In this document: piece by piece, positions 2,170 to 63,550 of the stretch
Layout: every line of letters begins with the position of its first letter
Numbering within the stretch: the first letter of the stretch is position 1
Assembly: GCA_004295245.1 (NCBI GenBank)
Contig: REAR01000059.1
Span: 1-64,000, forward strand
Direction: 5' to 3'
DNA from: Sphingobacteriales bacterium
GTDB taxonomy: Bacteria; Bacteroidota; Bacteroidia; Chitinophagales; Chitinophagaceae
Length of the DNA stretch: 64,000 nucleotides
Position numbers and translations under genes: made by a program
Notes under the pieces: model-generated
The model's input: the letters and a program-made list of their open reading frames with translations, nothing else
What the model was told of the DNA's origin: nothing
Databases searched by the model: none

Positions 2170-2226
2170 ACTGCAGTACAAGAGTGCGACGCAAGGATGC
2201 CGCCACTGTTGCAGCTGCTGGTACCA
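2170..2226 (+). repeat. dispersed palindromic repeat, right-type half
   Basis: GTGCGACGCAA (2184-2194) and GCTGGTACC (2217-2225). Confidence 0.8.
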
Positions 2227-2268
2227 TATTTATACTAAACACTTGCAAATTTTTAAACACTTACAATT

Positions 2269-4062
2269 ATGAGCACCACAACAAACAAACAGCAAGCCTT
2301 AAAAGGCGGCGAATGGCTGGTTAAAGAAAGCTCAGCTTTTGAAACATTTATACCGGAAGATTATAACGAGGAACAACAGATGGTGAAAGATATGTGCACC
2401 AGTTTTTTGGATGCTGAAGTATTGCCTGTTATTGAACGTGTAGATAAAATGGAACCGGGCCTGATGCCTGCTTTAATGGTAAAAGCCGGCGAGCAGGGAT
2501 TACTGGGTGTTTCAATACCAGAAGAGCAAGGTGGCCTGGGTAAAGATTTTATTACCTCTACTCTGGTGAACGAAGCTTTGGGGGGTGGTTTTTCTTTTTC
2601 AGTAGCAGTAGCAGCACATACTGGTATTGGCACATTACCTATTTTATATTTTGGTACAGAAGAGCAAAAGAAAAAATATATTCCTAAACTGGCTTCTGGC
2701 GAGTGGAAAGGTGCTTACGGTTTAACAGAGCCTAACAGCGGTAGCGATGCATTGAGTGCTAAAACAACAGCTAAACTAACAGAAGATGGCAAGCATTATA
2801 TTGTTAACGGCCAAAAATGCTGGATAACCAACGGTGGCTTTGCAGATGTTTATACAGTGTTTGCTAAAGTAGATGGAGATAAGTTTACCGGCTTTATAAT
2901 TGAACGCGGTTTTGAAGGCTTTACACAAGGGCCAGAAGAACATAAGATGGGTATTAAAGGCTCTTCTACCGTACAACTATTTTTTCAAGACTGTAAAGTG
3001 CCGGCAGAAAATATGCTGGGAGAAGTTGGTAAGGGCCATATTATAGCGTTTAATATTTTAAATATTGGCCGTTTAAAATTATGTGCTGCTGCATTGGGTG
3101 GTAGTAAAAGAGCTTTAAACACCACCATTGAATATGCCAATACAAGAGAACAATTTAAAACTCCCATAGGTAGTTTTGGGGCTATTAAAAATAAACTGGC
3201 CAATATGGCCATTGGTATTTGGGTGGCAGAAAGTGCTTTATACCGCACGTCTAAATGGATAGATGATAAAGAACATGAATTGATGGCTGCCGGTAAGCCT
3301 TTTAATGAGGCCTTATTGGGTGCTGCAGAAGAATACGCCATTGAGTGTGCTATGTTAAAAGTATATGGCAGCGAAGTATTAGATTTAGTAGTGGATGAAG
3401 GTGTGCAGATACATGGCGGCAATGGGTTTAGCGATGAGTATATTATTTCAAAAGCATACCGCGATAGCCGTATTAACCGCATTTACGAAGGCACCAATGA
3501 AATTAATCGTTTACTTACCGTAGACATGGTACTAAAACGTGCCATGAAAGGCAGATTAGATTTAATGGGCGCAGCCATGAATGTGCAGAAAGAACTAATG
3601 TCGATACCCGATTTTGGCAGCGGCGATGACGCACCTTTTGCAAAAGAATTAAAGGCTATTACCAATTTTAAGAAAGCTATTTTAATGGTAGCCGGTGCAG
3701 CCGTGCAAAAGCTAATGATGAAGATTGAACACGAGCAAGAAATATTAATGAATATAGCAGATATGGCAATTGAAACGTTTAATGCAGAAAGCGCCTTGCT
3801 GCGTGTAATTAAACTGGCAGATAAACGTGGTGAAACCGGCTGCCAGTTTGAATTGGATATCACCCATACTTATATTTATGATGCTGCAGACCGCATTAAT
3901 AAATTTGGTAAAGATGCATTAAATGCATTTGCAGATGGCGATGAACAGCGAATGATGTTGTTAGGGTTAAAGCGCTTTACTAAAGCAGAACCCTTTAACA
4001 GTAAAGATGCCAAGCGCCGTATTGCCAATAAATTACTGGGCGATAATAAATACCCGTTGTAA
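2269..4062 (+). CDS. acyl-CoA dehydrogenase family protein
   Basis: GAYGLTEPNSGSDA, IHGGNGFSDEYIISKAYRDSRINRIYEGTNEINR motifs. Confidence 0.95.
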   Translation: MSTTTNKQQALKGGEWLVKESSAFETFIPEDYNEEQQMVKDMCTSFLDAEVLPVIERVDKMEPGLMPALMVKAGEQGLLGVSIPEEQGGLGKDFITSTLVNEALGGGFSFSVAVAAHTGIGTLPILYFGTEEQKKKYIPKLASGEWKGAYGLTEPNSGSDALSAKTTAKLTEDGKHYIVNGQKCWITNGGFADVYTVFAKVDGDKFTGFIIERGFEGFTQGPEEHKMGIKGSSTVQLFFQDCKVPAENMLGEVGKGHIIAFNILNIGRLKLCAAALGGSKRALNTTIEYANTREQFKTPIGSFGAIKNKLANMAIGIWVAESALYRTSKWIDDKEHELMAAGKPFNEALLGAAEEYAIECAMLKVYGSEVLDLVVDEGVQIHGGNGFSDEYIISKAYRDSRINRIYEGTNEINRLLTVDMVLKRAMKGRLDLMGAAMNVQKELMSIPDFGSGDDAPFAKELKAITNFKKAILMVAGAAVQKLMMKIEHEQEILMNIADMAIETFNAESALLRVIKLADKRGETGCQFELDITHTYIYDAADRINKFGKDALNAFADGDEQRMMLLGLKRFTKAEPFNSKDAKRRIANKLLGDNKYPL

Positions 4063-4088
4063 TTACTGTATAAAGTTTAGTTATAAAG

Positions 4089-4113
4089 CCCTGCTGTTAA
4101 GCAGGGTTTTTTT
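4089..4113 (+). terminator. Rho-independent terminator of acyl-CoA dehydrogenase gene
   Basis: CCCTGC-loop-GCAGGG followed by T run. Confidence 0.85.
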
Positions 4114-4116
4114 TAT

Positions 4117-4190
4117 GTAACCAACTGTAGTATTACATAGCATCAACTGTTGCGTCGCACCTGTTAACGGTACGGCAGTGAGCAACAAAA
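4117..4190 (-). repeat. dispersed palindromic repeat, left-type half
   Basis: GTAACCAAC ... GTTGCGTCGCAC (4149-4160). Confidence 0.8.
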
Positions 4191-4298
4191 AACAAATAAC
4201 TATAACAAAGCGTAGTGCAGCAGGTCTAAATTTTTTTAAAGGTCATAATGAAAACTTGTACTTTCATAGCCCCTTTATAACAACATTTACAACCGCAT

Positions 4299-7090: not shown

Positions 7091-7139
7091 TTTTGAACGG
7101 AGCGTCGCAAGAATGTTGCGCTGTGAGTTACTGTTCACC
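7091..7139 (+). repeat. dispersed palindromic repeat, degenerate copy
   Basis: GAACGGAGCGTCGCAAGAATGTTGCGCTGTG, closely similar to the copy at 63500-63550. Confidence 0.65.
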
Positions 7140-8583: not shown

Positions 8584-10839
8584 ATGACTGAAGCAAATAA
8601 GAACATGAAGCTATTAAGGCCCTTATTGAGAGGGCTGCCTATAATAATTGCAGTTGTTATGGGGGCTGTTTCATTGGCAAAATGGTACTTAGATCATACT
8701 GTGCCGATGTTTGAGAGTATGGCTCGGGTTAAACTGGCTGACCCCAGTGACGGACCTGCCAGTGCAAATTTGTATAAGGACTTTGATGTTTTTAGTAATA
8801 AAAACAAAATTGGAACGGAAGTAGAGATTATGAAATCTAAAGCACTGGTAGAAAAGACGCTGGATAGTATTGATATGGAAACTGTTTTATACCGTATTGG
8901 TAAAATGGTTAAAAAAGAATTGTATCATGAAGCTCCTTTTAAGCCTGTAATAAAAATAAAGAATCATAAATGGAATGATAAGCCCTTTGTTATTAGGGTA
9001 ACTTCTTCAACCGAGTTTACCATTAACCTGCCAGATAAACCTGCTATGAAAGGCATTTTTGGACAACCTATTTTATCTGACGTAGCGGATATTATTTTAA
9101 TGAAGAATGAGCGGCTTTTGGCGGAGAAGCCCAATCTGTCTTTTATCGGATTATATGAAGTAATAGTAAACAGCAGAGAAAAAGCAATAGACCACATTAT
9201 TGGTAAGTTGGACATTACATCGGTAGATAAGGACATACCTATTTTAAGGATTATTTATACCAGCCCGGTGCCAGAAAAAGCAGCTGACTATGTTAATGTA
9301 TTAGCTAAAACATATATTGACGATTATGTGGAAAATAAATACAAAGCTGCAAATATTACAGTAAAATTTCTGGATAATCAGCTACAGCAGATTGGGAATA
9401 AGCTGAACAATTCTGAAACTGCAATTGAAGATTACAGGAATGATGGCAACATTATTAATATCCGGCAGGAGACGGAGACCGATTTACGGAAGATTGCACA
9501 AATGAAAATACAGCTGGCAAACCTTCACATGAACCTGGCAGCAATAGATACATTGAATAATTATATACAGCGCGGAAAAGAAAATTTTTTACTGGTAGCA
9601 CCCAATTTTGAGGCCTTTACAGACCTTCTCTCAACCGAAATGATTAAAAAGGTAAAACAACTTCAATCTGAAAAAAAGGATTTGCTATTGCGCTATACAG
9701 CGAATAATGATAAAGTGAAAGTAGTGGATGACAAGCTGGATGATGTGTTTACCTATTTTGTTGAAAGTATAAAAAATACAAAAAATAATTATGAAATAAA
9801 GTATAAAGAAATTGATACTGCTATAAAAGAAATGGAAAAGGTTTTTATTGGCTTGCCTACCAAAGAAAAGGAAATGACCATTTTGGAAAGGGATTTTGGT
9901 ATGAACCAAAAAACATACATGTTTTTGCACGAGAAAAAAACAGAAGCGGAAATTGCACGTGCCGCCACCATTTCTTTTCACCGGATTATTGCGTTTGGTG
10001 AAGTGCCTGCTAAGCCAGTATCTCCTAACCGTGTTTTAATTATTGCTGTTTCGGCAATATTGGCAATACTGGGCAGCACTTCTCTTATCTATACGGTGCA
10101 TGCTATGAAAGCGAAAGTGAATGACAGTTCAGTTATTGAAAAAAGCTCACTTACGCCATTGGTGGCAGAAATTTTAATGCAACGAAAAGAAAAAGACAGA
10201 ATTACGCACTTTAATAATGTTGCTATTCAATTAGAATTAAGAAACGTAATAAAATATCCTGCTGTTATTTCTTTTACTTCATTTGCTAAGAAAGAGGGTA
10301 AATCTTACATAGCTGCCAATCTGGCCCGCGGTATTGTTTCATTAAATAAAAAGGTGCTGCTGGTAGATGTGGGTGGCACAGTGCCAGATAAACAGGGTTG
10401 GTATTTGCAAAGTATTGAGGGTACATTAATCTGTAAAACACCAGTAAGTAATTTATTTTATTACAGGGCAAATGAAGAAAGTAAAGACCAGGTAGTGATA
10501 CAAGAAGAATTGCAGGATAAACTGAACGAATGGAAAAAAACGTACGATGCTATTTTTATAAGAAATAACCCGACGGGTGATTTTGGAAATACACTGGTTT
10601 TTATGGCAGTGGCGGATGTGAATATGTTTGTGTTGGATAGCCGGAAAACATCTGCAAAAAAAGTGTTAGAAGCGGATGTTTTAAAAGAAAAGTTTAATGT
10701 GCCTAACATGAAGTTTATATTGAATAAAGCATACTATAACCCAAGCTTATTTGTTGAGTTGTGGGAAATAGCAAAAAAATTTATGACATTTCCGCGTGGC
10801 ATAAAAAATACCATTGTTAAATATTTATCTAAAAAGTGA
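8584..10839 (+). CDS. Wzz/GumC-type chain-length determinant with C-terminal BY-kinase-like P-loop domain
   Basis: Two TM segments, coiled-coil, C-terminal ISFTSFAKKEGKSYIAANLARG and VLLVDVGG. Confidence 0.86.
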   Translation: MTEANKNMKLLRPLLRGLPIIIAVVMGAVSLAKWYLDHTVPMFESMARVKLADPSDGPASANLYKDFDVFSNKNKIGTEVEIMKSKALVEKTLDSIDMETVLYRIGKMVKKELYHEAPFKPVIKIKNHKWNDKPFVIRVTSSTEFTINLPDKPAMKGIFGQPILSDVADIILMKNERLLAEKPNLSFIGLYEVIVNSREKAIDHIIGKLDITSVDKDIPILRIIYTSPVPEKAADYVNVLAKTYIDDYVENKYKAANITVKFLDNQLQQIGNKLNNSETAIEDYRNDGNIINIRQETETDLRKIAQMKIQLANLHMNLAAIDTLNNYIQRGKENFLLVAPNFEAFTDLLSTEMIKKVKQLQSEKKDLLLRYTANNDKVKVVDDKLDDVFTYFVESIKNTKNNYEIKYKEIDTAIKEMEKVFIGLPTKEKEMTILERDFGMNQKTYMFLHEKKTEAEIARAATISFHRIIAFGEVPAKPVSPNRVLIIAVSAILAILGSTSLIYTVHAMKAKVNDSSVIEKSSLTPLVAEILMQRKEKDRITHFNNVAIQLELRNVIKYPAVISFTSFAKKEGKSYIAANLARGIVSLNKKVLLVDVGGTVPDKQGWYLQSIEGTLICKTPVSNLFYYRANEESKDQVVIQEELQDKLNEWKKTYDAIFIRNNPTGDFGNTLVFMAVADVNMFVLDSRKTSAKKVLEADVLKEKFNVPNMKFILNKAYYNPSLFVELWEIAKKFMTFPRGIKNTIVKYLSKK

Positions 10840-12143
10840 TTGCTGTTAAACACATAGTAAAATTTTATAAAAGCAATCAGTTTTGGGTGCTGGCAGATCA
10901 GCTTTTGGCCAGTGGTGCTGCTTTTTTAATTACTATTATTATTGCCCGCACCTTACCAGTTGCTGATTTTGGCTGGTACGCCTCTGTAGTATTGTTTCAG
11001 TTATTATTATTAGCAATACAAAATGCTGTGCTTACCAGCCCGTACCAGGTATTACAGGCATCTTATAATACTGAAGAAAAATACAATTACCTGAAAGCAC
11101 TATTTAAGGTTGAAAGCGTATTGTTATTATGTATTGGTTTGCTTGCTTTATTATTTTTTATAGTGGCACCGGTATGGTTACAACCTTTTATGGAAAGATT
11201 CTGGTGGGTGGCGGTATTAGTTTGTGGGTATTTATTACAAGACTTTTTAAGAAGGGTTTTAATAACAGAATCAAAACCGATAGCCTCTTTTCTTACCAAT
11301 ACAGTTTATTATGTTATTGGTGGCTGCAGCTTACTATATCTGCACGGTATTAATGCATTAACACTTACCAATATTATTTGTGTATTAGGTTTTAGCTATT
11401 TGCCCAGTGTTTTTGTAGCTGTTTATTTTATCAGTCAGTTTAATAGTAGCATAAAAGATGAACGGATTGCGACGCAACAATGCCAAACCGGAGCGAAGGA
11501 GCTGGTATCTTTTAAAAGTACAGTGCGCCTGCACATGCACCACGGTAAATGGTTATTGTTAACGGCTATTTTACAATGGTGGGCTGGCAATGTTTTTTTT
11601 GTGGCAGCAGGTGTGTTGCTGGGTGTGGAAGCTTTTGGTGCATTAAGATTGGCTCAAAATATTTTTGGATTATTGAATGTGTTGTTTCAGGCATTTGAAA
11701 ATTATATAGTACCGAATGCTGCAAGGGTGTATCAGCAATCTGCAACATTGCTGTCGGGGTATTTAAAAACTATCTCAAAAAAATCGGTGTTGCTTTTATT
11801 ACCCATTTTAGTAGTGTTGTTTGTATTGGCACAGCAAGTATTTACCCTTGCCGGTGGAGCACAATATGCCAGCTACTATAGTTTAATACAGGTAATGTGT
11901 GGTTTATATCTTTTAATATTTCTTGGCTACCCGGTGCGTATTGCAATACGTGTAATGCTTTTAAATAAAGCTTTTTTTATTGGCTATGTTACAAGCACAG
12001 TTTTTAGCATGTTAGCTGCAAGGCCCATGGTGGCTTGGCTGGGTATTAATGGTGTGGTGGCAGGGTTGTTAATTAACCAGGTATTACTAATTGGTTACTG
12101 GTTATATGTTTTAAAACAAAAAAATTTTGTGTTATGGAAATAA
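10836..12143 (+). CDS. oligosaccharide flippase (Wzx/MATE-like)
   Basis: Multi-TM; LLASGAAFLITIIIARTLPVADFGWYASVVLFQLL typical of flippases; GTG start overlapping the upstream stop. Confidence 0.82.
   Translation: MIAVKHIVKFYKSNQFWVLADQLLASGAAFLITIIIARTLPVADFGWYASVVLFQLLLLAIQNAVLTSPYQVLQASYNTEEKYNYLKALFKVESVLLLCIGLLALLFFIVAPVWLQPFMERFWWVAVLVCGYLLQDFLRRVLITESKPIASFLTNTVYYVIGGCSLLYLHGINALTLTNIICVLGFSYLPSVFVAVYFISQFNSSIKDERIATQQCQTGAKELVSFKSTVRLHMHHGKWLLLTAILQWWAGNVFFVAAGVLLGVEAFGALRLAQNIFGLLNVLFQAFENYIVPNAARVYQQSATLLSGYLKTISKKSVLLLLPILVVLFVLAQQVFTLAGGAQYASYYSLIQVMCGLYLLIFLGYPVRIAIRVMLLNKAFFIGYVTSTVFSMLAARPMVAWLGINGVVAGLLINQVLLIGYWLYVLKQKNFVLWK
11457..11510 (+). repeat. dispersed palindromic repeat inside a CDS (in frame)
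   Basis: GATGAACGGATTGCGACGCAAC identical over 22 nt to intergenic copy 43766-43787; ends GCTGGTAT. Confidence 0.9.
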
Positions 12144-14562: not shown

Positions 14563-14568
14563 TAGTAG

Positions 14569-14684
14569 GTAACCAGCCGGAGCATAAAATGCAACTGTGG
14601 TTGCGTCGCACACTTCGGCCATAGTAGTACTACTGTACACGTGTGCGACGCAACAAAAGCTGCATAGCAATATGCTGCTGATCC
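14569..14684. repeat. full-length inverted-repeat copy of the family
   Basis: GTAACCAGC ... GTTGCGTCGCACAC (14600-) and GTGTGCGACGCAAC (14641-14654). Confidence 0.88.
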
Positions 14685-14691
14685 AATAAAA

Positions 14692-20436: not shown

Positions 20437-20475
20437 CAAGAACAACTTTAAAATAGAAGCTCTTTTTTTTGATTA

Positions 20476-20630
20476 GTGTACCAGCAATAGTAATACTATT
20501 CGGCATTGGTTGCGTCGCACACTTCAGCTGCAGTAATGCTATTTTGAAATTTCAGAATAGCACAATTAATGCATAACTGTAGAAGTGTGCGACGCAACCA
20601 ATGCTGCTACCTGTACCACTGCTGGTAACA
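20476..20630. repeat. full-length inverted-repeat copy of the family
   Basis: 23-bp perfect inverted repeat 20503-20525 / 20582-20604, flanked by ACCAGCA and TGCTGGTAAC. Confidence 0.92.
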
Positions 20631-20663
20631 AAAAATGTATTTGAAGAATTTAATATCCGTTTT

Positions 20664-24384: not shown

Positions 24385-24460
24385 TCCAGCTTTTCATTTT
24401 CAATGCAGCATCCTTGCGTCGCACACTTCAGCGGCAGTGCTTTATTGAACGGATGATTGT
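24385..24460 (-). repeat. dispersed palindromic repeat, left-type half
   Basis: CCAGC ... CTTGCGTCGCACACTTCAGC (24413-24432). Confidence 0.82.
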
Positions 24461-24803: not shown

Positions 24804-25029
24804 TTGCTTAATCGTTTTTATACGATGAATATAAGTAAAATAAAAGACGATTTTAGTGTCGCCTGTAATCTTATATCGCAAATATACGATTTAGTAAAAC
24901 AAATAACCAAATCTTTTTTTTACTGTAATAAGCTACCTGCAAGTAGCTTAAGTAAGTGTAAAACTTGGTGGCCATTGTTTATTGCGGCCCCTGACGGGGT
25001 GGAGCGCTACTATTACACGTTTCTTGCAG

Positions 25030-25086
25030 CGTTGCAGTTGAAGTGTGCGACGCAACGATGTTGACCTATGTACAAAGGCTGGTAAC
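25030..25086 (+). repeat. dispersed palindromic repeat, right-type half
   Basis: GAAGTGTGCGACGCAAC (25040-25056) ... GCTGGTAAC (25078-25086). Confidence 0.88.
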
Positions 25087-25088
25087 AA

Positions 25089-25121
25089 AAAAACAGCCCG
25101 TTGTTATTAACGGGCTGTTTC
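25089..25121 (-). terminator. terminator of msrB
   Basis: AAACAGCCCGTT/AACGGGCTGTTT hairpin with T run on minus strand. Confidence 0.8.
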
Positions 25122-26634: not shown

Positions 26635-28077
26635 ATGAAGAAAGTGGTATGTTTTCTTTTTTTCTTTATTAGTTTTTTTGCCCAGGCACAAACTACAGGA
26701 TACAATATCAGCGTAACCATCAAGCCGTATAAAAACCAGTATCTGTACCTTGGTTATTATTATGGCAAAGTAAAGGCGCTGGCAGATTCTGCATTGTCTA
26801 ATAGCCAGGGTGTGGCTGTTTTTAAAGGGGCTAAAAAATTAAGCGGGGGCATTTATTTTGTAGTGTCGCCGGGCAAAGAAAGAATTTTGTTTGAGCTGTT
26901 GCTGGATAAACAACAACAGTTTGCTATTGTAGCAGATACCACTAATCTGCCAGCTAGCGTAAATTATATAAACTCGCCAGAAAATAAATTGTTTCAGAAC
27001 TATTCAAAGTTTGCTACAGAAAACGGACAGCAAGTAGCAAGGCTGGCAAGTATGCTGTCAACTGCCAACGCCACTGATACGGCTATTATTAACGGCGAAA
27101 TTCGCAGCCTTACTAAAAAAATGCAGCTATACCGGGATAGTGTTACTACCAGCAACGCCAACAGTATGCTGGCTGCATTATTACAGTCGTTAAAAGAGCC
27201 AATTATTCCTGCAACAGATAAGCACCCCGGCGGAAAATACGATTCAAGTTTTGCTTATAACTATTTTAAAAGCCATTATTGGGATGGTGTAAAATTTACC
27301 GATGAGCGACTCATACGCACTCCTATTTTTGAGCAAAAGCTGGATAAGTATTATAAAGACCTGGTAGTACCAGACCCGGATAGTCTACAAAAGGAAGCAG
27401 ATGCCATGCTTGCTAAAGCAAAGCCCAACAAAGAAATGTTTAAATACCTGCTCACCTATTTTGTGCAGAAGTATATTAACCCGGAGTATATGGGGCAGGA
27501 TGCGGTATTTGTGCACCTCTTTGAAAAATACATTAACAATAATGCACAGGTAGATTGGTTTACGGAGAAGTATAAAAAATACATGAGTGATCGTGCCTAC
27601 AGTATTATGGGCAACCTCATTGGCTACACCGCACAAAACCTTAACCTGGTAGATACCGCCGGCACCCCCACACCCCTTTATAAAGTAAACGCTGCCTACA
27701 CCGTTATAATTTTTTGGGATGCTACCTGCGGCCATTGTAAAGAAGTAGTGCCAAAAATAGATTCACTGTTTCAAACTAAATGGAAGCAACAGGGCGTGGC
27801 CATTTATGGGGTAATGACGGATGGCGGTAAAGCGGCATGGTTGCAATACATACAGCAAAACAATTTAAAAGATTGGATACACGTTTACCAAACTGAAGCG
27901 CAGCGAGATACAGAAACCAATGCAGGCAAACCCAATTACAGACAGTTGTTTGATGTATACCAAACCCCCGTACTTTATTTATTAGATGCTAATAAAAAAA
28001 TATTGGCAAAAAAATTAACGTGGGAGCAAATTAATGAGCTGCTGGCCGCAAAGGTAAAAGCCGCTACGGGTAAGTAA
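26635..28077 (+). CDS. TlpA-like thioredoxin-fold protein with N-terminal DUF4369-like domain
   Basis: Signal peptide; VIIFWDATCGHCKEVVPKIDSLF thioredoxin CxxC. Confidence 0.88.
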   Translation: MKKVVCFLFFFISFFAQAQTTGYNISVTIKPYKNQYLYLGYYYGKVKALADSALSNSQGVAVFKGAKKLSGGIYFVVSPGKERILFELLLDKQQQFAIVADTTNLPASVNYINSPENKLFQNYSKFATENGQQVARLASMLSTANATDTAIINGEIRSLTKKMQLYRDSVTTSNANSMLAALLQSLKEPIIPATDKHPGGKYDSSFAYNYFKSHYWDGVKFTDERLIRTPIFEQKLDKYYKDLVVPDPDSLQKEADAMLAKAKPNKEMFKYLLTYFVQKYINPEYMGQDAVFVHLFEKYINNNAQVDWFTEKYKKYMSDRAYSIMGNLIGYTAQNLNLVDTAGTPTPLYKVNAAYTVIIFWDATCGHCKEVVPKIDSLFQTKWKQQGVAIYGVMTDGGKAAWLQYIQQNNLKDWIHVYQTEAQRDTETNAGKPNYRQLFDVYQTPVLYLLDANKKILAKKLTWEQINELLAAKVKAATGK

Positions 28078-28086
28078 TTTTTTTTG

Positions 28087-28155
28087 AAACCAGCATCAAC
28101 ACAATAACCAGCAGTCGTTGCGTCGCACACTTCAGCTGTAGCAAATACTGCAGCA
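28087..28155 (-). repeat. dispersed palindromic repeat, left-type half
   Basis: AACCAGC ... GTTGCGTCGCACACTTCAGC (28117-28136). Confidence 0.88.
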
Positions 28156-28186
28156 ATAAAAAATACAAACCAATACAACACACTCC

Positions 28187-30109
28187 ATGAAAAAAATATT
28201 GTTACTAATTTTTTGCGTTCAAAGTATGTGGGTACAAGCACAAACTTTGTTTACCTATGGTAAAACAGCAGTAACCAAAGAAGAATTTTTAAGAGCTTAT
28301 AATAAGAACAATACCACACAAACTAATACAGCAACTGCCTATAAAGATTATCTTGAATTGTACATTCGTTTTAAACTTAAAGTACAGGCTGCACTAGAAG
28401 CAAAATTAGACACTTTACCCAATCAGCAGTTAGAGTTGTATAATTTTCGTAGTCAGGTAATAGATAATTATATGAACGACGAGACTGCTTTAAACGCTTT
28501 AGTAAACGAAGCGTTTGAACGCAGCCAGAAAGACCTGCATATTGCATATATCAATGTACCCTTTACAGGTACAGATACTATTACTGCGTTTAAAAAAGTA
28601 ACAGAAGCTCAAACTAAATTAAAGCAAGGCGCACCCTTTGCAACTATTGCAGGGCAGTATTCAGCAGATCCGGATGCAAAAGAAAATGGTGGCGATATTG
28701 GTTTTATAACAGTATTCAGTTTACCCTATGTACTTGAAACAGTTTGTTATCAAACAAAGGCAGGTGCAATTTCAGATCTTGTAAAAACAAAAACAGGGTA
28801 TTATATTTTTAAAAATATAGAACAGCGGCCAGCTGTTGGTAAATTAAAAGCAGCACAAATATTAGTAGCTTTTCCACCCGATATTACAGAAGCCGGTAAA
28901 CTAAAAAGAAAGCAACTGGCAGATTCATTATACACTGCGTTGCAGCAAGGGGCTTCTTTTAGTGAGTTGGCTGCCAAATATAGTAACGATAATATTGGCT
29001 ATTTATCTGGAGGCACCATGCCAGATTTTGGTGTAGGTAAATATGAAACCGCATTTGAGAGTGCGGCATTTTCATTAGAGAAAGATGGGGCTATCAGTAA
29101 ACCGGTGGCTACTTCGTTTGGGTATCACATCATTCAGCGACAGCAAAAAATTCCGGTTAATACAGATAGCAAAAATGAAACTGCTATGGCTTTATTAAAG
29201 CAGTTGGTGCAGTCAGACAAGCGCATAGAAATAGTAAAACAAGTTTTGGCTACCCGTATTTTAAAAGAAACTAATTTTAAAAAAGGAACTATCAATACAC
29301 ATACGTTGAGGGCTGTAACAGATAGCCTGCAACAAAATAAATTAATAAAAAATATTCCTGCAATAGCATCAAACGGAGTGTTATTTAGTTTTCCGGGCCA
29401 AAAAGTAACCACCACAGATTTTGCAAAATACCTGGAAAGTATTCAGCCAGCCCCCGATTTATGGCAAAACAAAACTGTTAACCAGTTAATAGAGCAATAC
29501 CAGCAAGCCGTGGCCATGGAGTATTACAGAAAAAATCTGGAACAATACAATAGCGAATTTGCTTACCAAATAAATGAGTTTAAAGAAGGCAACCTGCTTT
29601 TTGAGATAATGCAAAAAGAAGTTTGGGAAAAAGCAGCAGCCGATTCTAACGGACTTAAAAAATTCTTTACAGAAAATAAAAACAAATACTGGTGGGAAAA
29701 AAGTGCCGACGCTATTTTTTTTACGGCCACTGATTCTATTATGGCTACAGAAACAAGAAATGCTTTTATAAAAGAAAAAAAAGATTGGCGATTGTTAGCT
29801 CAAAATTCTGATGGCAGGGTACAAGCAGACTCTGGCCGGTTTGAATTAACACAAATACCTGTTACAGATATTAATGCAATAATAAATGGCTATTGCTCCA
29901 TGCCACAGGTTTCTGTAACAGATAATATTGCCACTTTTATATACATTATAAAAGTATACACACAAAAGGAGCCACGCAATTACGAAGATGCACGCGGTTT
30001 TGTAATTAACGATTATCAGGCTTATTTAGAAGAGCAATGGATCACTGCTTTAAAGAAAAAATTTCCTATAAAGGTTAATGAAGCTGTTTTAGCGTCCTGT
30101 TGGAAATAA
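28187..30109 (+). CDS. periplasmic peptidyl-prolyl cis-trans isomerase (parvulin/SurA-like)
   Basis: Two parvulin blocks: GAPFATIAGQYSADPDAKENGGDIGFI and GASFSELAAKYSNDNIGYLSGGTMPDFGVG; signal peptide. Confidence 0.88.
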   Translation: MKKILLLIFCVQSMWVQAQTLFTYGKTAVTKEEFLRAYNKNNTTQTNTATAYKDYLELYIRFKLKVQAALEAKLDTLPNQQLELYNFRSQVIDNYMNDETALNALVNEAFERSQKDLHIAYINVPFTGTDTITAFKKVTEAQTKLKQGAPFATIAGQYSADPDAKENGGDIGFITVFSLPYVLETVCYQTKAGAISDLVKTKTGYYIFKNIEQRPAVGKLKAAQILVAFPPDITEAGKLKRKQLADSLYTALQQGASFSELAAKYSNDNIGYLSGGTMPDFGVGKYETAFESAAFSLEKDGAISKPVATSFGYHIIQRQQKIPVNTDSKNETAMALLKQLVQSDKRIEIVKQVLATRILKETNFKKGTINTHTLRAVTDSLQQNKLIKNIPAIASNGVLFSFPGQKVTTTDFAKYLESIQPAPDLWQNKTVNQLIEQYQQAVAMEYYRKNLEQYNSEFAYQINEFKEGNLLFEIMQKEVWEKAAADSNGLKKFFTENKNKYWWEKSADAIFFTATDSIMATETRNAFIKEKKDWRLLAQNSDGRVQADSGRFELTQIPVTDINAIINGYCSMPQVSVTDNIATFIYIIKVYTQKEPRNYEDARGFVINDYQAYLEEQWITALKKKFPIKVNEAVLASCWK

Positions 30110-33395: not shown

Positions 33396-33415
33396 TTGTT
33401 TTTATTGTATTGGCA

Positions 33416-33537
33416 TTTGTTCTTTAGTCAACATTGTTGTGTCACTCACTTGTACTGTTGGTGCTTTGCGCAGCATTGCGTTGCTGTTAACTGGTGCGAC
33501 GCAACGGCTGCTGCCTTGCATTGCTACAGCTGGTTTA
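33416..33537. repeat. heterotypic repeat pair (variant left core, canonical right core)
   Basis: GTTGTGTCACTCACTT (33436-33451) and GGTGCGACGCAAC (33493-33505) ... GCTGGTTTA. Confidence 0.85.
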
Positions 33538-35250
33538 CAAATTACCTTTCTTCAATTCGCTTACGGCGTAATCTGCAGCTCTTGCAGTTAGTGCCATGTA
33601 GGTAAGCGATGGGTTTTGACAGGCACTGCTGGTCATGCAGGCGCCATCTGTTACAAAAACATTCTGTGCATCCCAAACCTGGTTGTGTGCGTTTAATACA
33701 GATGTTTTGGGGTCTTTGCCCATACGTGCTGTTCCCATTTCGTGTATGCCGTGGCCAATGGCATGGCCATTGTCCCAGGTGCGTACATCTTTAACACCCG
33801 CTGCTTCTAACATGGCTTTCATTTCTGTAACAATGTCTTTACGCATTTTTAATTCGTTTTCTTTCAGTTCGGCATCCATTGAAAGAACAGGCAACCCCCA
33901 TTTATCTTTTACATTTTTATCCAGCGAAATTTTGTTTTCGTGATAAGGCAGTATTTCTCCAAAACCTGTAGCACCTACTCTCCAGGCACCGGGTTCGGTT
34001 AATGCTTCTTTAAAACCAGCACCAATAGAAAGTTCGGCCACATCTCGGCCCCAATCGCCACGGCTGGCGGCACCCTGGTAGCCAAAGCCACGCAGGTAAT
34101 CTCTTTTATCGGTTCCTACATTTGCAAACCGCGGAATATAAAAACCATTGGCACGGCGACCATAATAATACTTGTCTTCGTAGCCTTCAATATTGCCAGA
34201 AGCTCCCAAATTATAATGATGGTCCATTACATTATGCCCTAACTCACCACTGCTGCTTCCCAGGCCTTCTGGCCAAATATCGGTGGCACTATTAAATAAA
34301 ACCCAGGTGCTGTTTAATGCAGAGGCGCAAACAAAAACTATTTTACTGTTGAAAGTATAGGTTTTATTAGTAACAGCGTCTAATACTTCAACGCCGTTGG
34401 CTTTTTTTGTGTCTTTATTATAATTAATCTTAGTAACAATAGAATCGGGCCTTACTGTTAGGTTACCGGTTGCCATGGCTGCAGGTAATGTAGAAGATTG
34501 TGTGCTGAAATAGCCACCAAAAGGGCAACCTTCCCAGCAACGGTTACGATATTGACATTGCGTGCGACCGGGTAATGGTGCTGTTAAATTAGCAATGCGG
34601 CCAATAAATAAATGTCTGTCTCCTTTAAAATGTTGTTTAATACGTGCAGCTACATCTTTCTCTACACAGTTTAAATCCATTGCGGGTAAAAAATGCCCAT
34701 CTGGTAGCTGGGCTAATCCTTCTTTACTGCCGCTAATGCCTGCAAATTTTTCTGCATATTCGTACCAAGGTGCAAGGTCATTGTAGCGAATGGGCCAATC
34801 AACACCCACACCTTCTTTACCATTGGCTGCAAAGTCCATCTCGCTCCAACGATAGCTTTGGCGGCCCCACATAATACTGCGGCCACCCATGCGGTAACTG
34901 CGCCACCATGTAAAAGGTTTTACTTCTGTATACGGACAATCTTTTTCATTTACCCATCCGCCCATTACAGCTTCTTGTGCGGCCCAACCCCGGTGTACTA
35001 CCGGATAATCTTTTTTTTGCTGTTGAGTAGTTTTGCCGCGGTGTTCAAAATCCCAAAGATCTTTACCGGCGGTTGTATAATCTGTTTTATGTTCAAAAGC
35101 GGCACCTCTTTCCAGCATTAAAACTTTTAAACCTTTTTCTGTAAGTTCTTTAGCGGCCCAGCCACCACTAATACCACTGCCAATAACAATAGCATCGTAG
35201 GTATTTTGAGCAGCAGCTTTGTTGTTTATGTTAAGCGTATCGCCGGGCAT
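33535..35250 (-). CDS. GMC-family oxidoreductase (paralog 2)
   Basis: Same motif set: IGSGISGGWAAKELTEKGL, CQYRNRCWEGCPFGGYFSTQSSTLPAA, IHEMGTARMG. Confidence 0.93.
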   Translation of the reverse strand: MPGDTLNINNKAAAQNTYDAIVIGSGISGGWAAKELTEKGLKVLMLERGAAFEHKTDYTTAGKDLWDFEHRGKTTQQQKKDYPVVHRGWAAQEAVMGGWVNEKDCPYTEVKPFTWWRSYRMGGRSIMWGRQSYRWSEMDFAANGKEGVGVDWPIRYNDLAPWYEYAEKFAGISGSKEGLAQLPDGHFLPAMDLNCVEKDVAARIKQHFKGDRHLFIGRIANLTAPLPGRTQCQYRNRCWEGCPFGGYFSTQSSTLPAAMATGNLTVRPDSIVTKINYNKDTKKANGVEVLDAVTNKTYTFNSKIVFVCASALNSTWVLFNSATDIWPEGLGSSSGELGHNVMDHHYNLGASGNIEGYEDKYYYGRRANGFYIPRFANVGTDKRDYLRGFGYQGAASRGDWGRDVAELSIGAGFKEALTEPGAWRVGATGFGEILPYHENKISLDKNVKDKWGLPVLSMDAELKENELKMRKDIVTEMKAMLEAAGVKDVRTWDNGHAIGHGIHEMGTARMGKDPKTSVLNAHNQVWDAQNVFVTDGACMTSSACQNPSLTYMALTARAADYAVSELKKGNL

Positions 35251-35280
35251 ATTTTATATTGGTTTATGAAATGATAAAGA

Positions 35281-37002: not shown

Positions 37003-37039
37003 AGTTTCGTTAGTTTATTATTTGTAAAACCGGTTTGCT

Positions 37040-37111
37040 GTGCAGCCACTGATACTGAAGTACAGGTGTGCGACGCAACAAATGATGAATAGCGTTACAA
37101 CTGCTGGTTTA
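37040..37111 (+). repeat. dispersed palindromic repeat, right-type half
   Basis: GTGTGCGACGCAAC (37066-37079) ... GCTGGTTTA (37103-37111). Confidence 0.87.
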
Positions 37112-38785
37112 TAAATTACCTTTCTTTAATTCTTCTACAGCATGGTTTACGGCACGGGCAGTAAAGGCCATATAGGTCAAAGAAGGGTTTTGACATGCGC
37201 CACTGGTCATAAATGAACCATCGGTTACAAATACGTTGGGTGCATCCCAAACCTGGTTCCATTTATTTAATACAGATGTTTTCGCATCGTGCCCCATACG
37301 TGCTGTACCCATTTCATGAATGCCGCGGCCTGGGTAGGGTTCATTATCGCCTGCATACACATTTTTAACACCTAATGCTTCCAGCATTTCTTTGGCATCT
37401 TCTTTCATGTCTTTACGCATGTTCAGCTCATTTTCTTTCAACTCACAATCGATGCTTAAAACATTCAATCCCCATTTATCCTTCTTGGTTTTATCCAGGG
37501 TTACTTTATTCTCATGGTAAGGTAAAATTTCTCCAAAGCCACCCATACCAAAGGTCCAGCCACCGGGTTCTGTTAATGCATCTTTAAACTGCCCGCCAAT
37601 GCTGTATTCTGCTACATCTCGGCTCCAGCCTTGGCGGCTAGCGCCTCCCTGGTAACCAAAGCCACGCAGGTAACTACGTTTATCTCCAAAAAAATTACGA
37701 TAGCGGGGTATATAAATACCATTGGCGCGGCGGCCAAATGTGTATTTATCATCAAAACCATCTACGGTACCACCAGCCCAAACACCCAGGTGATGATCCA
37801 TTAAATTATGCCCTAACTGATTGCTGCTGCTGCCTAAACCACCAGGCCATATATCTGTTGCAGAGTTTAATAAAATCCAGGTAGAGTTTAAAGTAGAAGC
37901 GTTTAAGAAAACAATTTTTGCTTTGTACTCGTAGGTTTGATTGGTTTCAGCATCTAATACTTCAACACCTGTGGCTTTTTTGGTGTCTTTATTGTATAAA
38001 ATTTTTGTAACAATCTGGTTGGCTTTAAGTGTAAGGTTACCGGTTGCTACTGCTGCAGGTAATGTAGCAGACTGTGTGCTGAAATAACCGCCGTATGGGC
38101 AACCATACCAGCATTTATCTCTGTATTGGCACTGACGGCCATTAATGGGCACTGTTGCATGTGCGCAACGGCCAATAATCATTTTACGATTGCCACTGTA
38201 TAGCCCTTTAATTTTCTGGCTCATGTCTTTTTCAACACAAGTCATATCCATTGGCGGCAAAAACTCACTATCTGGTAATTCTGGCAAACCTTCTTTGCTG
38301 CCGCTGATGCCGGCAAACTTTTCTACATAGCTGTACCACTGCTCCAGTTCTTTATAACGTACCGGCCAATCTACACCAATGCCATCTTTTGCATTTTCTT
38401 CAAAGTACATATCGCTCCAGCGATAGCTTTGGCGGCCCCATAATAAAGAACGTCCTCCTACATGATAACCACGAAACCAGTCGAAACGCTTTACCTCAGT
38501 ATAGGGGCTATCCTTATCGCTGGCCCACATGCTTAAGTTGCGCTCATTTAACGGGTAATCTCTTTTTAATACAGGGTAGTTCTGTATCATTTCCTGGGTG
38601 CGCTGGCCACGGTGAGGATAGTCCCAAGGCTCTTTGTTGGCATCTACATAATCTTTTATGTGCTCAATGTTGCGGCCTCTCTCTAACATTAAAGTTTTTA
38701 ACCCTTTTTCTGTTAACTCTTTGGCGGCCCAGCCACCACTAATACCACTGCCAATAACAATGGCATCAAATACGTTTTCTGGCAT
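37109..38785 (-). CDS. GMC-family oxidoreductase (paralog 4)
   Basis: Same motif set; CQYRDKCWYGCPYGGYFSTQSATLPAA; shorter N-terminus. Confidence 0.93.
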   Translation of the reverse strand: MPENVFDAIVIGSGISGGWAAKELTEKGLKTLMLERGRNIEHIKDYVDANKEPWDYPHRGQRTQEMIQNYPVLKRDYPLNERNLSMWASDKDSPYTEVKRFDWFRGYHVGGRSLLWGRQSYRWSDMYFEENAKDGIGVDWPVRYKELEQWYSYVEKFAGISGSKEGLPELPDSEFLPPMDMTCVEKDMSQKIKGLYSGNRKMIIGRCAHATVPINGRQCQYRDKCWYGCPYGGYFSTQSATLPAAVATGNLTLKANQIVTKILYNKDTKKATGVEVLDAETNQTYEYKAKIVFLNASTLNSTWILLNSATDIWPGGLGSSSNQLGHNLMDHHLGVWAGGTVDGFDDKYTFGRRANGIYIPRYRNFFGDKRSYLRGFGYQGGASRQGWSRDVAEYSIGGQFKDALTEPGGWTFGMGGFGEILPYHENKVTLDKTKKDKWGLNVLSIDCELKENELNMRKDMKEDAKEMLEALGVKNVYAGDNEPYPGRGIHEMGTARMGHDAKTSVLNKWNQVWDAPNVFVTDGSFMTSGACQNPSLTYMAFTARAVNHAVEELKKGNL

Positions 38786-38811
38786 ACGTTAGTTATATGT
38801 TTATTATTATG

Positions 38812-38870
38812 TAATCAACTTTGGTAGCTATGCGCAGCAATGGTTGCGTCGCACCCTTCAGCTATAGTAA
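38812..38870 (-). repeat. dispersed palindromic repeat, left-type half
   Basis: GGTTGCGTCGCACCCTTCAGC (38842-38862). Confidence 0.85.
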
Positions 38871-38921
38871 CTTTTATCAACAACTTTTTAAAACAAGCAC
38901 TCAACTTTACACCGGTTACAA

Positions 38922-43627: not shown

Positions 43628-43818
43628 AAACCAGCAATAGTGCTGCTATTAAACATTGTTGTGTCACTCACTTGTGCCACAAAATATAATTGAGCTTTTT
43701 TAGGTAACTTTTAACCGGAGTTACGCATAACTTTAAGCAACAAAATGTTTTATAGTACTACCAACGATGAACGGATTGCGACGCAACGATGCTACACCGG
43801 AGTTGCTATGCTGGTATT
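43628..43818. repeat. long heterotypic repeat pair
   Basis: AAACCAGC ... GTTGTGTCACTCACTT (43658-43673) and GATGAACGGATTGCGACGCAAC (43766-43787) ... GCTGGTATT. Confidence 0.83.
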
Positions 43819-43854
43819 GATTATTAATAACAACTAACTTATAAATTAAGCACT

Positions 43855-44997: not shown

Positions 44998-45750
44998 ATG
45001 CTTGCAAAATGTATTTTTCGCTATTTGTTTTTGTTGCTTACACTTGTTGTTAGCGTATCGTTTAGTGGAAATAATTTTTTGCAACCACTGAAAAGAGAAA
45101 ACCGGGTGTTGGTGTTTTCTAAAACCAATGCATTTAGGCATGCCAGTATAGCCGATGGTATAGAAGCGATACGAAAAATTGGAGAAGCTAATAATTTTGA
45201 TGTGGATGCCACAGAAGATTCTTTAGCTTTTACACCAGAAAACTTACAACAGTACAAGGCGGTTATTTTTTTGCATACTACCGGTAATATCTTAGGCGAA
45301 GCGCAGCAACTGGCGTTTGAAGATTATATACATAAGGGCGGTGGCTTTGCAGGTATACACGGTGCCAGCGATTGCGAATACCAATGGCCCTGGTATGTAA
45401 AAATGGTAGGCGCTAGTTTTGATAGCCACCCCAAACAGCAAGATGCCGTTTTAAGAGTGGTAAATAAAAAGCATGTAGCTACCAAAGGCTTGCCACAAGA
45501 ATGGAAACGCTTTGACGAGTGGTATAATTTTAAAAATCTGAACAAGAAAGTAAAAGTGCTTATTAAATTAGATGAGCAATCTTATCAGGGTGGTAAGCAT
45601 GGAAAGAATCACCCGATTGCGTGGTACCATGCTTATGAAGGAGGCCGTGCATTTTATACGGCACTGGGTCATACAAAAGAAGCTTATACTGAGCCTTTGT
45701 TTTTACAACATATTACTGGCGGCATAAAATATGCCATGAACGTACAATAG
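44998..45750 (+). CDS. ThuA-domain protein
   Basis: VLVFSKTNAFRHASIADGIEAI, GGGFAGIHGASDCEYQWPWY, HPIAWYHAYEGGRAFYTALGHTKEAY. Confidence 0.92.
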   Translation: MLAKCIFRYLFLLLTLVVSVSFSGNNFLQPLKRENRVLVFSKTNAFRHASIADGIEAIRKIGEANNFDVDATEDSLAFTPENLQQYKAVIFLHTTGNILGEAQQLAFEDYIHKGGGFAGIHGASDCEYQWPWYVKMVGASFDSHPKQQDAVLRVVNKKHVATKGLPQEWKRFDEWYNFKNLNKKVKVLIKLDEQSYQGGKHGKNHPIAWYHAYEGGRAFYTALGHTKEAYTEPLFLQHITGGIKYAMNVQ

Positions 45751-45767
45751 CAGAACGCTATATAAAT

Positions 45768-45796
45768 AAAAGGCCGCTTTAAATAAGCGGCCTTTT
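45768..45796. terminator. bidirectional terminator between convergent genes
   Basis: AAAAGGCCGCTT-loop-AAGCGGCCTTTT. Confidence 0.9.
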
Positions 45797-45799
45797 ATT

Positions 45800-46543
45800 T
45801 TATTGTAATGCTCTTACCCAAATATTTCTATAACTAACGGCATCGCCGTGGTCTTGTAATATAAAAGGTAATTTATCAGCATGCTTTGTGTATCCTGGTG
45901 TGCCAATATATTCTGTTGCGCCCCATATTTCAATATTGTTTTGTACTAAAACACCGTTGTGTAAAACCGTGATGCGGGCGGCAGCTTTAACAGTACCGTC
46001 TTCATTAAAACGTGGTGCAGTAAACACCACATCATACGTTTGCCACTCACCGGGTTTGCGGCTGGCATTTACCAAGGGCATACGTTGCTTATAAATACTA
46101 CCAGCCTGCCCGTTGCTGTAAGTAACATTATTATAATTATCTAATACCTGCAGCTCGTATAAACCCATAAAAAAGATACCGCTATTACCGCGTCCCTGTC
46201 CTTCGCCTTTTACAATAGCAGGTGTTCTCCATTCTATATGCAACTGGCAATCGCTAAAGCCTTGTTTAGATTTTATATTGCCGGTGCCGCCTGCAACAGT
46301 CATTGCGTTGTCTTCTACTTTCCATTTAACAGCACCGCCGTTTACACCTTCCCAGGCACTGGCATCTGTGCCGCCAAATAATACTACTGCATCTGATGGT
46401 GCGTTGTGTGCAGTAACACCTGGTGTTATTACTTTAGGAGCCGGGCTCCATACTTCAGTCAGCTTGGGGTCGCCCTGACGTTGTGCAACAGTTACAGTAG
46501 TAAACGAGGCCAGCAAGCAAAACGATAGCAAATATTTTTTCAT
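45800..46543 (-). CDS. DUF1080 secreted protein (second copy)
   Basis: [57 protein letters not shown]. Confidence 0.92.
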
Positions 46544-47986: not shown

Positions 47987-48058
47987 ATTGCCAATGCGGT
48001 TGCTGCCGTTGAAGTGAGTGACACAACGATGCTGACCGGAGTTACCATGCTGGCTACC
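47987..48058 (+). repeat. variant-subfamily repeat
   Basis: GAAGTGAGTGACACAACGATGCTGACCGGAGTTACCATGCTGGCTACC. Confidence 0.85.
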
Positions 48059-49150: not shown

Positions 49151-49249
49151 TTGGTCTTTTTAGGCTGCAAAAATAAAGGTTGCCATTGAGGCAACCAATT
49201 ATACATTTCAAAGGAGGTGTTTAATTTTTTGTTTCCGGCATTTGTAAGC

Positions 49250-49328
49250 TTAGCAGCAGTTGTTGCGTCGCACACGTGTACGGTTGTGCAGGCCGCAACG
49301 GTATTTTATAAAAACCAGTGGCTGGCAG
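49250..49328 (-). repeat. dispersed palindromic repeat
   Basis: GTTGCGTCGCACACGTGTAC (from 49262). Confidence 0.8.
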
Positions 49329-52230: not shown

Positions 52231-52250
52231 GTTGTGTCACTCACTTGTAC
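52231..52250 (-). repeat. variant-subfamily repeat core
   Basis: GTTGTGTCACTCACTTGTAC, identical to the core at 33436-33455. Confidence 0.78.
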
Positions 52251-53929: not shown

Positions 53930-54194
53930 CCGTTTATAATTTCAAAAAAAAATGGTTGCCTGCAAGCTAAATACTACATCTTTGTAAAATCAATACTACG
54001 ATTTATGAAATACGAATGAACACAGTATTTACTGTATTTTAGTAACCTGTGTATACCTCTTTCTTGCTTTAATACTGCAATTGCGGCCCAATACATATTG
54101 CCTATTTTAAAATAATATAACCCGGCTGCAGATGCTTTTTAAAAAATGCTTCAGCACCGTTTTAAAAATTGCATATACTGCTTACTTATGTTTT

Positions 54195-54249
54195 GCCGTA
54201 CAAGTGTGCGACGCAACGGTTGCTGAGCATAGATAAATGGCTGGTAAAC
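54195..54249 (+). repeat. dispersed palindromic repeat, right-type half
   Basis: CAAGTGTGCGACGCAAC ... GCTGGTAAAC. Confidence 0.87.
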
Positions 54250-54309
54250 AAAAATAAAAACATATTGAGGCTGGCCACTAATTAGTTTATAATTCTTTAA
54301 TTTTTTTTC

Positions 54310-56904: not shown

Positions 56905-56956
56905 GTTGCAGTGTGCGACGCAACCACAGCCAATGCCTTTACTGCTGCTGGCTATA
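56905..56956 (+). repeat. dispersed palindromic repeat, right-type half
   Basis: GTGTGCGACGCAAC (56911-56924) ... GCTGGCTATA. Confidence 0.85.
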
Positions 56957-58975: not shown

Positions 58976-59011
58976 TTAAAATGCAAAGCGTAAGAAGCAA
59001 TTATTGTTTTT

Positions 59012-59075
59012 GGTAACCAACATTTGGTTTCAACATCAACATCGTTGCGTCGCACCCTTCAGCATTTAGCACAAT
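59012..59075 (-). repeat. dispersed palindromic repeat, left-type half, in rpsB-tsf gap
   Basis: GGTAACCAAC ... GTTGCGTCGCACCCTTCAGC (from 59044). Confidence 0.85.
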
Positions 59076-59110
59076 ACCCGGCTATAAGAACAACTAGTTT
59101 ATTAATTATG

Positions 59111-62259: not shown

Positions 62260-62264
62260 GATTA

Positions 62265-62636
62265 TTACTGTAATAATTCTGCATACGTTTTACCGGCAAG
62301 GTATTCTGTATTTCTATAAATATAAGTGGTACAGGCTGCATTTACCGGTTGTTGGGCAACACAAACTATGGCGGTATAAATTTTTCTTTTGCCTGCAGGA
62401 ATATCTGTTCTGGTAACTGCGGTTTTTGCTTTTACATCAATATCCAGTACTTTATTAGAAAATGGGAAGACAGTATCTGCCGTACCGGTTAAAATCAGTC
62501 GTTGATCAAATAATTGGTTGTTGGTGAATGTAACGGTGGCGGTATTGCCAGAAGCGCTATTACCAGAACTGTCAGATTTTTTGCAAGCGATTACGAATAG
62601 TACGATTGCTAAAGTAAGTACGCATGTTTTTTTCAT
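62265..62636 (-). CDS. small putative lipoprotein
   Basis: MKKTCVLTLAIVLFVIACKKSDSSG lipoprotein signal. Confidence 0.75.
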   Translation of the reverse strand: MKKTCVLTLAIVLFVIACKKSDSSGNSASGNTATVTFTNNQLFDQRLILTGTADTVFPFSNKVLDIDVKAKTAVTRTDIPAGKRKIYTAIVCVAQQPVNAACTTYIYRNTEYLAGKTYAELLQ

Positions 62637-62767
62637 TTTATAAAGTTTATGGGTGCAATTTCATTTGTAATGCCATTAGTTAATATAACCCTTTTGGATA
62701 GTTTTTAAAGAGTATCCAAATGGAGTATCTTTTTATGATTAATTTTATACAACCTTCGAAAGAAAAT

Positions 62768-63430
62768 ATGATACGTGTAGCTATAGCAGATGATAAAATA
62801 AACAACCGGAAAGTTATTGCAGACAAACTTTCTTGTAATAGCCTTATTAAACTGGTATTTGAAGCTGTTAATGGGGAAGATTTTTTAACACAACTGCGTG
62901 CACTGCCAGAAAACAAACGGCCTCATATTGTTTTAATGGATCTTGAAATGCCGGAAATTGATGGTGTTGCTACTATTGGTACCGCTTCTTCTTTATACCC
63001 TGATATTAAGTTTGTGGTACTTACTATTTTTGATGATGATGATAAAATATTAAAGGCTATTAAAGCCGGTGCTTGTGGTTACCTGCTTAAAGAAGAAAGC
63101 GGGCCTACTATAACAGCAATGTTACTGAACCTTTGGGAAGGCGGCGCCGGCCCCATATCGCCCAGCATTGCATACAAAATTTTACAACTGGTGCAAAAAC
63201 CATTGGTTGATGCAAGCAATGATGCAGCCGCTAGTTTATTTATGCTTACAGATAGGGAAAAGGAAATACTGCAGTTATTGAGTCAGGGTTTGGAGTATAA
63301 AGAAATAGGACAAAAAATATTTATTAGCCCTAATACGGTAAAGAAACACTGCATTAATATTTACCAAAAGCTGCATGTTAATAGTAAGGCACAGGCCTTG
63401 TGCATTGCTTATAAAAAAGGGTTGCTATAG
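62768..63430 (+). CDS. NarL/LuxR-type response regulator
   Basis: VAIADDKINNRKVIADKL, HIVLMDLEMPEIDGVATI, LTDREKEILQLLSQGLEYKEIGQKIFISPNTVKKHCINIYQKL; start 62768. Confidence 0.94.
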   Translation: MIRVAIADDKINNRKVIADKLSCNSLIKLVFEAVNGEDFLTQLRALPENKRPHIVLMDLEMPEIDGVATIGTASSLYPDIKFVVLTIFDDDDKILKAIKAGACGYLLKEESGPTITAMLLNLWEGGAGPISPSIAYKILQLVQKPLVDASNDAAASLFMLTDREKEILQLLSQGLEYKEIGQKIFISPNTVKKHCINIYQKLHVNSKAQALCIAYKKGLL

Positions 63431-63436
63431 ACTCAT

Positions 63437-63468
63437 AAAAAAACCGCCAAAGTGAAGGCGGTTTTTTT
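63437..63468. terminator. bidirectional terminator
   Basis: AAAAAACCGCC-loop-GGCGGTTTTTTT. Confidence 0.88.
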
Positions 63469-63489
63469 ATGAGTGTTTTTTGTTTGTTA

Positions 63490-63550
63490 CTGTACTGCTG
63501 TTAACTGGTGCGACGCAACGATGTTGCGCTGTGCGTTGCAGCTGGTTACC
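63490..63550 (+). repeat. dispersed palindromic repeat, right-type half
   Basis: GGTGCGACGCAAC ... GCTGGTTACC. Confidence 0.87.

Follow-up and report, generated by a model that had tools for sequence, protein, structure and literature searches.

What kind of element is the short palindromic sequence that recurs, together with a distal box, throughout the 64-kb window (the whole stretch of DNA analysed here)? The sequence-only reading had counted about 24 copies at about 20 loci, almost all of them intergenic, and the counts agree with this. A search for the core GTGTGCGACGCAAC with up to two mismatches gave 19 matches in the window, compared to a mean of 0.14 and a maximum of 2 in shuffled sequences, and TGCGACGCA is contained in all 19. 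A GCTGGT-like box, which had been proposed as the common distal part of all copies, follows the 9-mer at +21 to +25 in each of the 19 (12 exact, five with one mismatch and two with two). Five additional copies carry variant cores within the same arms, four with GAGTGACACAA (type B) and one with GAGCGTCGCAA, which brings the total to 24 copies at 20 loci. Two copies that seemed to be solo, 33495 and 43777, are in fact head-to-head partners of the variant-core copies 33437 and 43659. None of the 19 copies is located inside a gene predicted by our own caller, which is a simple ORF and hexamer model and not an annotation. The copy at 11468 falls within the longest ORF 10836-12143, the predicted start of this gene being downstream of the copy when the model is trained on more sequence. 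The units of the window are:

2152..2232, plus strand: solo unit, core 2185-2193, box GCTGGTACC
4112..4192, minus strand: solo unit, core 4151-4159, box GTTGGTTAC; adjoins a bidirectional terminator-like hairpin
7100..7110, plus strand: variant core C (GAACGGAGCGTCGCAAG), arms of the same kind
11435..11515, plus strand: solo unit, GAACGGAT ahead of the core, box GCTGGTATC
14563..14643, minus strand: left member of a head-to-head pair, core 14602-14610, partner 42 bp away
14611..14691, plus strand: right member of this pair (partner of 14563..14643), core 14644-14652
20472..20552, minus strand: left member of a head-to-head pair, core 20511-20519, partner 77 bp away, TGCTATTTTGAAATTTCAGAATAGCA in the spacer
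20555..20635, plus strand: right member of this pair (partner of 20472..20552), core 20588-20596, box GCTGGTAAC then AAAAAA
24376..24456, minus strand: solo unit, core 24415-24423
25013..25093, plus strand: solo unit, core 25046-25054, box GCTGGTAAC, A-run then a terminator-like hairpin
28080..28160, minus strand: unit that occupies the larger part of the gap 28077-28187, whose orthologous counterpart in genome G002 is about 20 bp long
33437..33447, minus strand: variant core B (GAGTGACACAA), head-to-head partner of 33495
33462..33542, plus strand: unit, core 33495-33503, box GCTGGTTTA abuts the stop codon of an opposite-strand gene
37036..37116, plus strand: unit, core 37069-37077, box abuts the stop codon of an opposite-strand gene
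38806..38886, minus strand: solo unit, core 38845-38853, degenerate box GTTGATTAC
43659..43669, minus strand: variant core B, head-to-head partner of 43777
43744..43824, plus strand: unit, core 43777-43785, box GCTGGTATT
48016..48026, plus strand: variant core B, typical arms (GTTGAAGTGAGTGACACAACGATGCTG ... GCTGGCTAC)
49225..49305, minus strand: solo unit, core 49264-49272, degenerate box GCCGGAAAC
52232..52242, minus strand: variant core B
54174..54254, plus strand: solo unit, core 54207-54215, box GCTGGTAAA
56881..56961, plus strand: solo unit, core 56914-56922, box GCTGCTGGC
59007..59087, minus strand: solo unit, core 59046-59054, box GTTGGTTAC
63476..63556, plus strand: solo unit, core 63509-63517, box GCTGGTTAC; the upstream terminator hairpin ends in TTTTTTT

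The window also contains four adjacent same-strand ORFs of 558-575 amino acids (31668-38785) with repeat copies in several of the surrounding gaps, and a segment at 45688-45849 with weak, sub-threshold Rfam matches on both strands (Thr_leader, STnc250), probably a strong hairpin between convergent genes.

The unit has a length of about 80 bp and is asymmetric. A left arm with the consensus ..TGAATAG..GTACAAGTG or ..CTGCnGTTGAAGTG is followed by the palindromic core TGCGACGCA(AC), a variable spacer of about 22 nt, the box GCTGGTnAC and an A-run. The consensus over four genera consists of a TGAATAG-type word with GTACAAGnG (or GTTGAAG, GCTGAAG), then TGCGACGCAAC, a variable spacer that often repeats the left word (AATAG.., ATGAAAAAC.., CCGGAGTTAC..), and GCTGGTnAC or GCCGGGCCC followed by CATAAAAA; in genome G005 the left arm is longer and occurs in two subfamilies. 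The description of the unit as palindromic applies to the core, a small odd-centred palindrome, but not to the unit as a whole, which has its box on one side only, and a larger palindrome is formed where two units stand head-to-head with their boxes outward and nowhere else. In the window's own genome (G000, 3.37 Mb), close pairs of less than 300 bp are 36 times oriented with the boxes outward (-,+), three times inward (+,-) and never on the same strand, and this excess of 36 out of 39 has a binomial p of 4e-8. The centres of the dimers are variable, with 25 to 166 bp from core to core, and often hold other palindromes, TTTCTGATTTGAAATTTCAAATCAGAAA-like in G000 and CGGCTCCGTAGGAGCCG-like in G007. 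In several G000 copies the palindrome TCCCGAAACTTCGGGA directly adjoins the core (L062 13780, L158 10744, L160 6427).

Inverted terminal repeats were seen in dimers only. One could assume that the dimer is the full element, a MITE of a DDE transposon, with the 50-bp halves as terminal inverted repeats and the solo units as deletion remnants. The outward ends of the dimers (T-run/GTTACCAGC ... GCTGGTAAC/A-run) and the inverted ends of the mosaic repeats in genome G086 (see below) would suit this explanation. However, solo copies form the majority, 96 of them in the G000 sample, and have a conserved left arm of their own, and neither a target duplication nor, with the search covering the Y1 class, a parental transposase was seen, so that we regard it as unlikely.

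The core itself exists in variants that occupy the same place as the main core. In 528 kb of G000, type B (GAGTGACACAA) was found 12 times and type C (GAACxGAGCGTx'GCAAC) 15 times; the former replaces C:G by T:A across the small palindrome, and in the latter x and x' are T/A, C/G or G/C. Rare copies have unrelated palindromes at the core position. The compensatory changes in types B and C would fit a palindrome that matters as such, be it in double-stranded or in single-stranded form. A separate family with the alternative core TCCGCCTCAGGCGGA was considered and rejected, because a single copy was found in 19 genomes. A coding peptide was also considered, as the cores A, B and C keep their length in one frame; it was set aside because other variants shift the frame and copies lie on both strands.

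Genome-wide, G000 contains 781 exact copies of GTGCGACGCAAC and none of the reversed control. Neither of the two outcomes that would have spoken against a family, a chance-level frequency of the core or copies lacking the shared distal box, was observed. The density of exact cores reaches one in every 4.3 kb. In 528 kb of this genome, all 182 cores are located outside predicted genes, which make up 82.5% of the bases, and 39-55% of the gaps above 100 bp contain a copy. Uptake sequences of naturally transformable bacteria have a similar copy density and a similarly invariant short core, and the close inverted pairs would also be compatible with an uptake sequence that accumulated via biased transformation. 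However, such sequences are expected to be frequent in coding sequence too (here 0 of 182), and the conserved anatomy of about 80 bp with box and A-run speaks further against this idea, which we consider very improbable.

Within the gaps, the location of the copies is clearly biased. Per kb, convergent gaps contain 3.63 cores, co-directional gaps 2.11 and divergent gaps 0.87 (528 kb of G000), and the units mostly follow stop codons or lie beside U-tracts. The A-run end points toward the 3' end of the gene on the opposite strand, and in this arrangement the core centre is most often 40-49 nt away from the opposing stop codon (G000: 24 of 57 copies; G027: seven of 14). Terminator-like hairpins face the A-run end in 29 of 169, 8 of 56, 3 of 26 and 9 of 81 copies from four genomes (11-17%), compared to 2.4-3.3% in the control windows. 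The repeat also bears on the annotation of 3' UTRs and of spurious small ORFs in Chitinophagaceae.

This bias to 3' ends and convergent gaps, together with the compensatory core variants, might also be explained by selection instead of mobility: a host protein could bind core and box, or a hairpin formed by the dimer in the 3' UTR could protect the mRNA or act as an insulator between converging transcripts. We regard such a host-maintained site as a serious alternative of clearly lower probability, and the distribution and the orthologous gaps discussed below bear on it. For a structured RNA (sRNA, riboswitch or leader) there is less to be said. It is possible to draw short hairpins, GNRA-like or of the form GTAC-AAGA-GTGC, in copies from G005, but the copies have no Rfam match, alifold yields a 3-bp core hairpin only, and mutual information over 204 copies reveals local correlations, including the core pair, and no long-range covariation. 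In addition, regions of one copy are no more complementary to each other than regions from shuffled copies in four genomes, and copies occur in both gene orientations. The RNA-level structural element that the sequence-only reading had offered as one possibility is accordingly hardly credible.

The repeat family is confined to Chitinophagaceae. Of 81 genomes searched, 30 had a match, every one from this family, and none of the 32 genomes from other families of the order had one. In a scan of 84,980 named genomes, the matches listed belong to Chitinophagaceae wherever family or genus is given; they comprise Segetibacter, Pinibacter, Foetidibacter, Limnovirga, Niastella, Flavisolibacter, Hydrotalea and MAGs. 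Among the matches listed, a few records are titled only Bacteroidetes or Bacteroidota. The motif is also present in fourteen viral contigs. A search of 5.39 million open-access papers for the core sequence gave no relevant match. The repeat is an unrecorded, family-specific intergenic family that resembles the REP elements of other bacteria.

Copy number is patchy across the genomes of the family (0-781) and even within a single genus. Among 19 species of the genus of G007 it ranges from 0 to 147, with no copy in four species whose genomes are at least 95% complete. Such a range is difficult to reconcile with an uptake sequence, and the lack of copies in several near-complete congeners also argues against a site that the host needs, as do the 0-1 copies in two incomplete same-genus genomes. 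The range within one genus makes the question of multiplication testable by comparative genomics.

Some lineages possess recent, near-identical copies and in others the copies undergo slow vertical decay. The former is seen in G086, where the arms of L220 and L230 are 97% identical inside a 231-bp stretch with 92% identity, and where a non-coding mosaic of about 220-360 bp or more recurs at about ten loci with 80-90% identity. This mosaic (L221, L232, L223, L217, L218, L228) contains several different hairpins including the repeat unit and has the appearance of a separate, composite repeat. Most of the sampled G086 copies are not orthologous to the G007 copies compared, which again is not what one would expect of a host-maintained site. 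In G000, the arms of the sampled copies have a mean identity of 56% (nearest-neighbour median 68%, flanks 48%), and no sampled pair exceeds 80% arm identity; there is therefore no sign of recent transposition in the window's genome.

The comparison of the sister species G089 and G091 shows both retention and rearrangement. Of 33 G089 cores, 20 have a G091 core in the orthologous gap. Some of these orthologues are nearly identical and some have a replaced arm beside flanks of 95% identity. In three further gaps that were tested, the sequences are unrelated. The core is kept in orthologous gaps while the arms diverge to about 50-65% in some pairs, which could mean selection on a host function. 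However, since the search pattern consisted of exact cores, the cores of matched pairs are to some extent identical by design, and whole gaps are replaced between close species. Three orthologous segments, each comprising a copy and its terminator, are inverted between G091 and G089 (L251/L244, L298/L248, L295/L270). The inverted repeats GGGGGAACTTAGGTC / GACCTAAGTTCCCCC flank several inverted segments of this species pair. L252 (G089) and L321 (G091) share arms and place but have two different palindromes as core, GTGCGACGCAAC and GTCCGCCTCAGGCGGAAC, the latter being unique in 19 congeners. In the pairs L300/L254 and L249/L242, the segment separating core and box has been exchanged for another, with flanks of about 95% identity. 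It is conceivable, though rather unlikely, that arms, palindromic core and core-box spacer are exchangeable cassettes in orthologous copies of sister species; if true, hundreds of intergenic sites would be the targets of an active recombination system guided by sequence. No target-site duplication was found, and no empty site was close enough to define the joins; reading the G001 and G002 gaps as empty sites was given up, since the divergence is too high for exact boundaries.

A RAYT-like Y1 transposase with matching ends had been suggested as the mobilizing partner, along with a full-length parent element. The former is not supported and the latter was not found, the transposase search covering class Y1. 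The only Y1 gene of G000 (L031) is flanked on one side by a copy and on the other, at the contig end, by the start of a second copy. This position, as well as the dimers and the 3' bias common to REP/RAYT families, could be taken to indicate a REP mobilised by a RAYT or another (IS200-like) Y1 transposase. However, the gene has its own, different palindromes. Its motif YIxNQxxHH resembles subclass 1.2 of PMC6006769. A palindrome cluster of the CCCACGGTTTTAACCGTGGG type is located at this gene (L031 1290-1420). G027, a 100% complete genome with 253 copies, has no PF01797 hit, and among the sampled Y1 loci of relatives the core is nearby in only two of 29, most having other palindromes of their own. 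For these reasons the RAYT reading is not supported as a general explanation. The GTAG tag is absent from all 19 window copies and precedes the core in a subset of G005 copies, and the copies in G007 lie on both strands; replichore polarity had been considered there and was rejected, as the full list alternates. Altogether, mobilization by such an enzyme appears improbable. One further Y1 transposase gene, at L104 of G005, begins within a type B copy when its ORF is extended.

The best reading, to which we assign a probability of roughly 55%, is a non-autonomous extragenic repeat family of the REP/BIME type. As for REP/BIME elements in the broad sense, this is a high-copy, extragenic, palindromic short repeat (781 cores; 182 of 182 outside predicted genes) that forms inverted dimers with variable centre (36:3) and is enriched at 3' ends. 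The class proposed from the sequence alone, MITE or REP/BIME-like, is supported by the high copy number, extragenic location, dimers, 3' bias, patchiness within a genus and near-identical unlinked copies in one relative; the RAYT partner is not supported. A trans-acting DNA-processing or recombination enzyme might recognize core and box, in units that are single or arranged as head-to-head dimers around a variable centre. This enzyme would not be of the Y1/RAYT class or would now be gone. New copies would arise in bursts within larger non-coding mosaics, and copies would be retained in places where they do no harm, behind stop codons and beside terminator U-tracts, and be lost or changed elsewhere. 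In other lineages, old copies would decay vertically with the core remaining, and the repeat would presumably have no function for the host. Against this reading stand the lack of a transposase (Y1 class searched), parent element or target-site duplication, and the diverged arms around a conserved core, which could mean selection for a host function instead.

Compared to known systems, the repeat is about as dense as REPs are in enteric bacteria. Like the GTAG-tagged REP/BIME elements of E. coli and Pseudomonas, which are linked to RAYT/TnpA-REP, it is present between genes in hundreds of palindromic copies, forms head-to-head dimers around variable centres, is biased to 3' ends and convergent gaps and has a lineage-specific copy number. 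However, its palindrome is tiny (3+3+3), it has a separate distal box and A-run, and it lacks GTAG in the window copies (the G005 subset has it) as well as a linked Y1 transposase. MITEs are likewise non-coding and dispersed, with inverted-repeat dimers and, as in G086, larger mosaic units, but the present repeat consists mostly of solo halves and neither a target duplication nor a parental transposon was found. The MIRU repeats of mycobacteria are short units set against stop codons in intergenic gaps and occur as directional tandem or interspersed units; the likeness lies in the stop-codon placement, and the difference in the palindromic core and the occurrence on both strands. A further comparison is that with the CGTC-tagged REPs, which are reported from five phyla including Bacteroidetes, have no dedicated transposase and are defined by a terminal CGTC tag, a stem of 8-9 bp, a loop of 4-5 nt and a CCA-like tail (PMC3733652). 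Common to both are the location downstream of genes, frequent head-to-head dimers, heterodimers and the absence of an associated transposase; in the Chitinophagaceae repeat, however, CGTC lies inside the palindrome and the stem has 3 bp. The repeat therefore falls outside both the GTAG-REPs with RAYT and the CGTC-REPs in the definition of PMC3733652, and like the latter it raises the question by what means palindromic repeats multiply when no transposase is dedicated to them.
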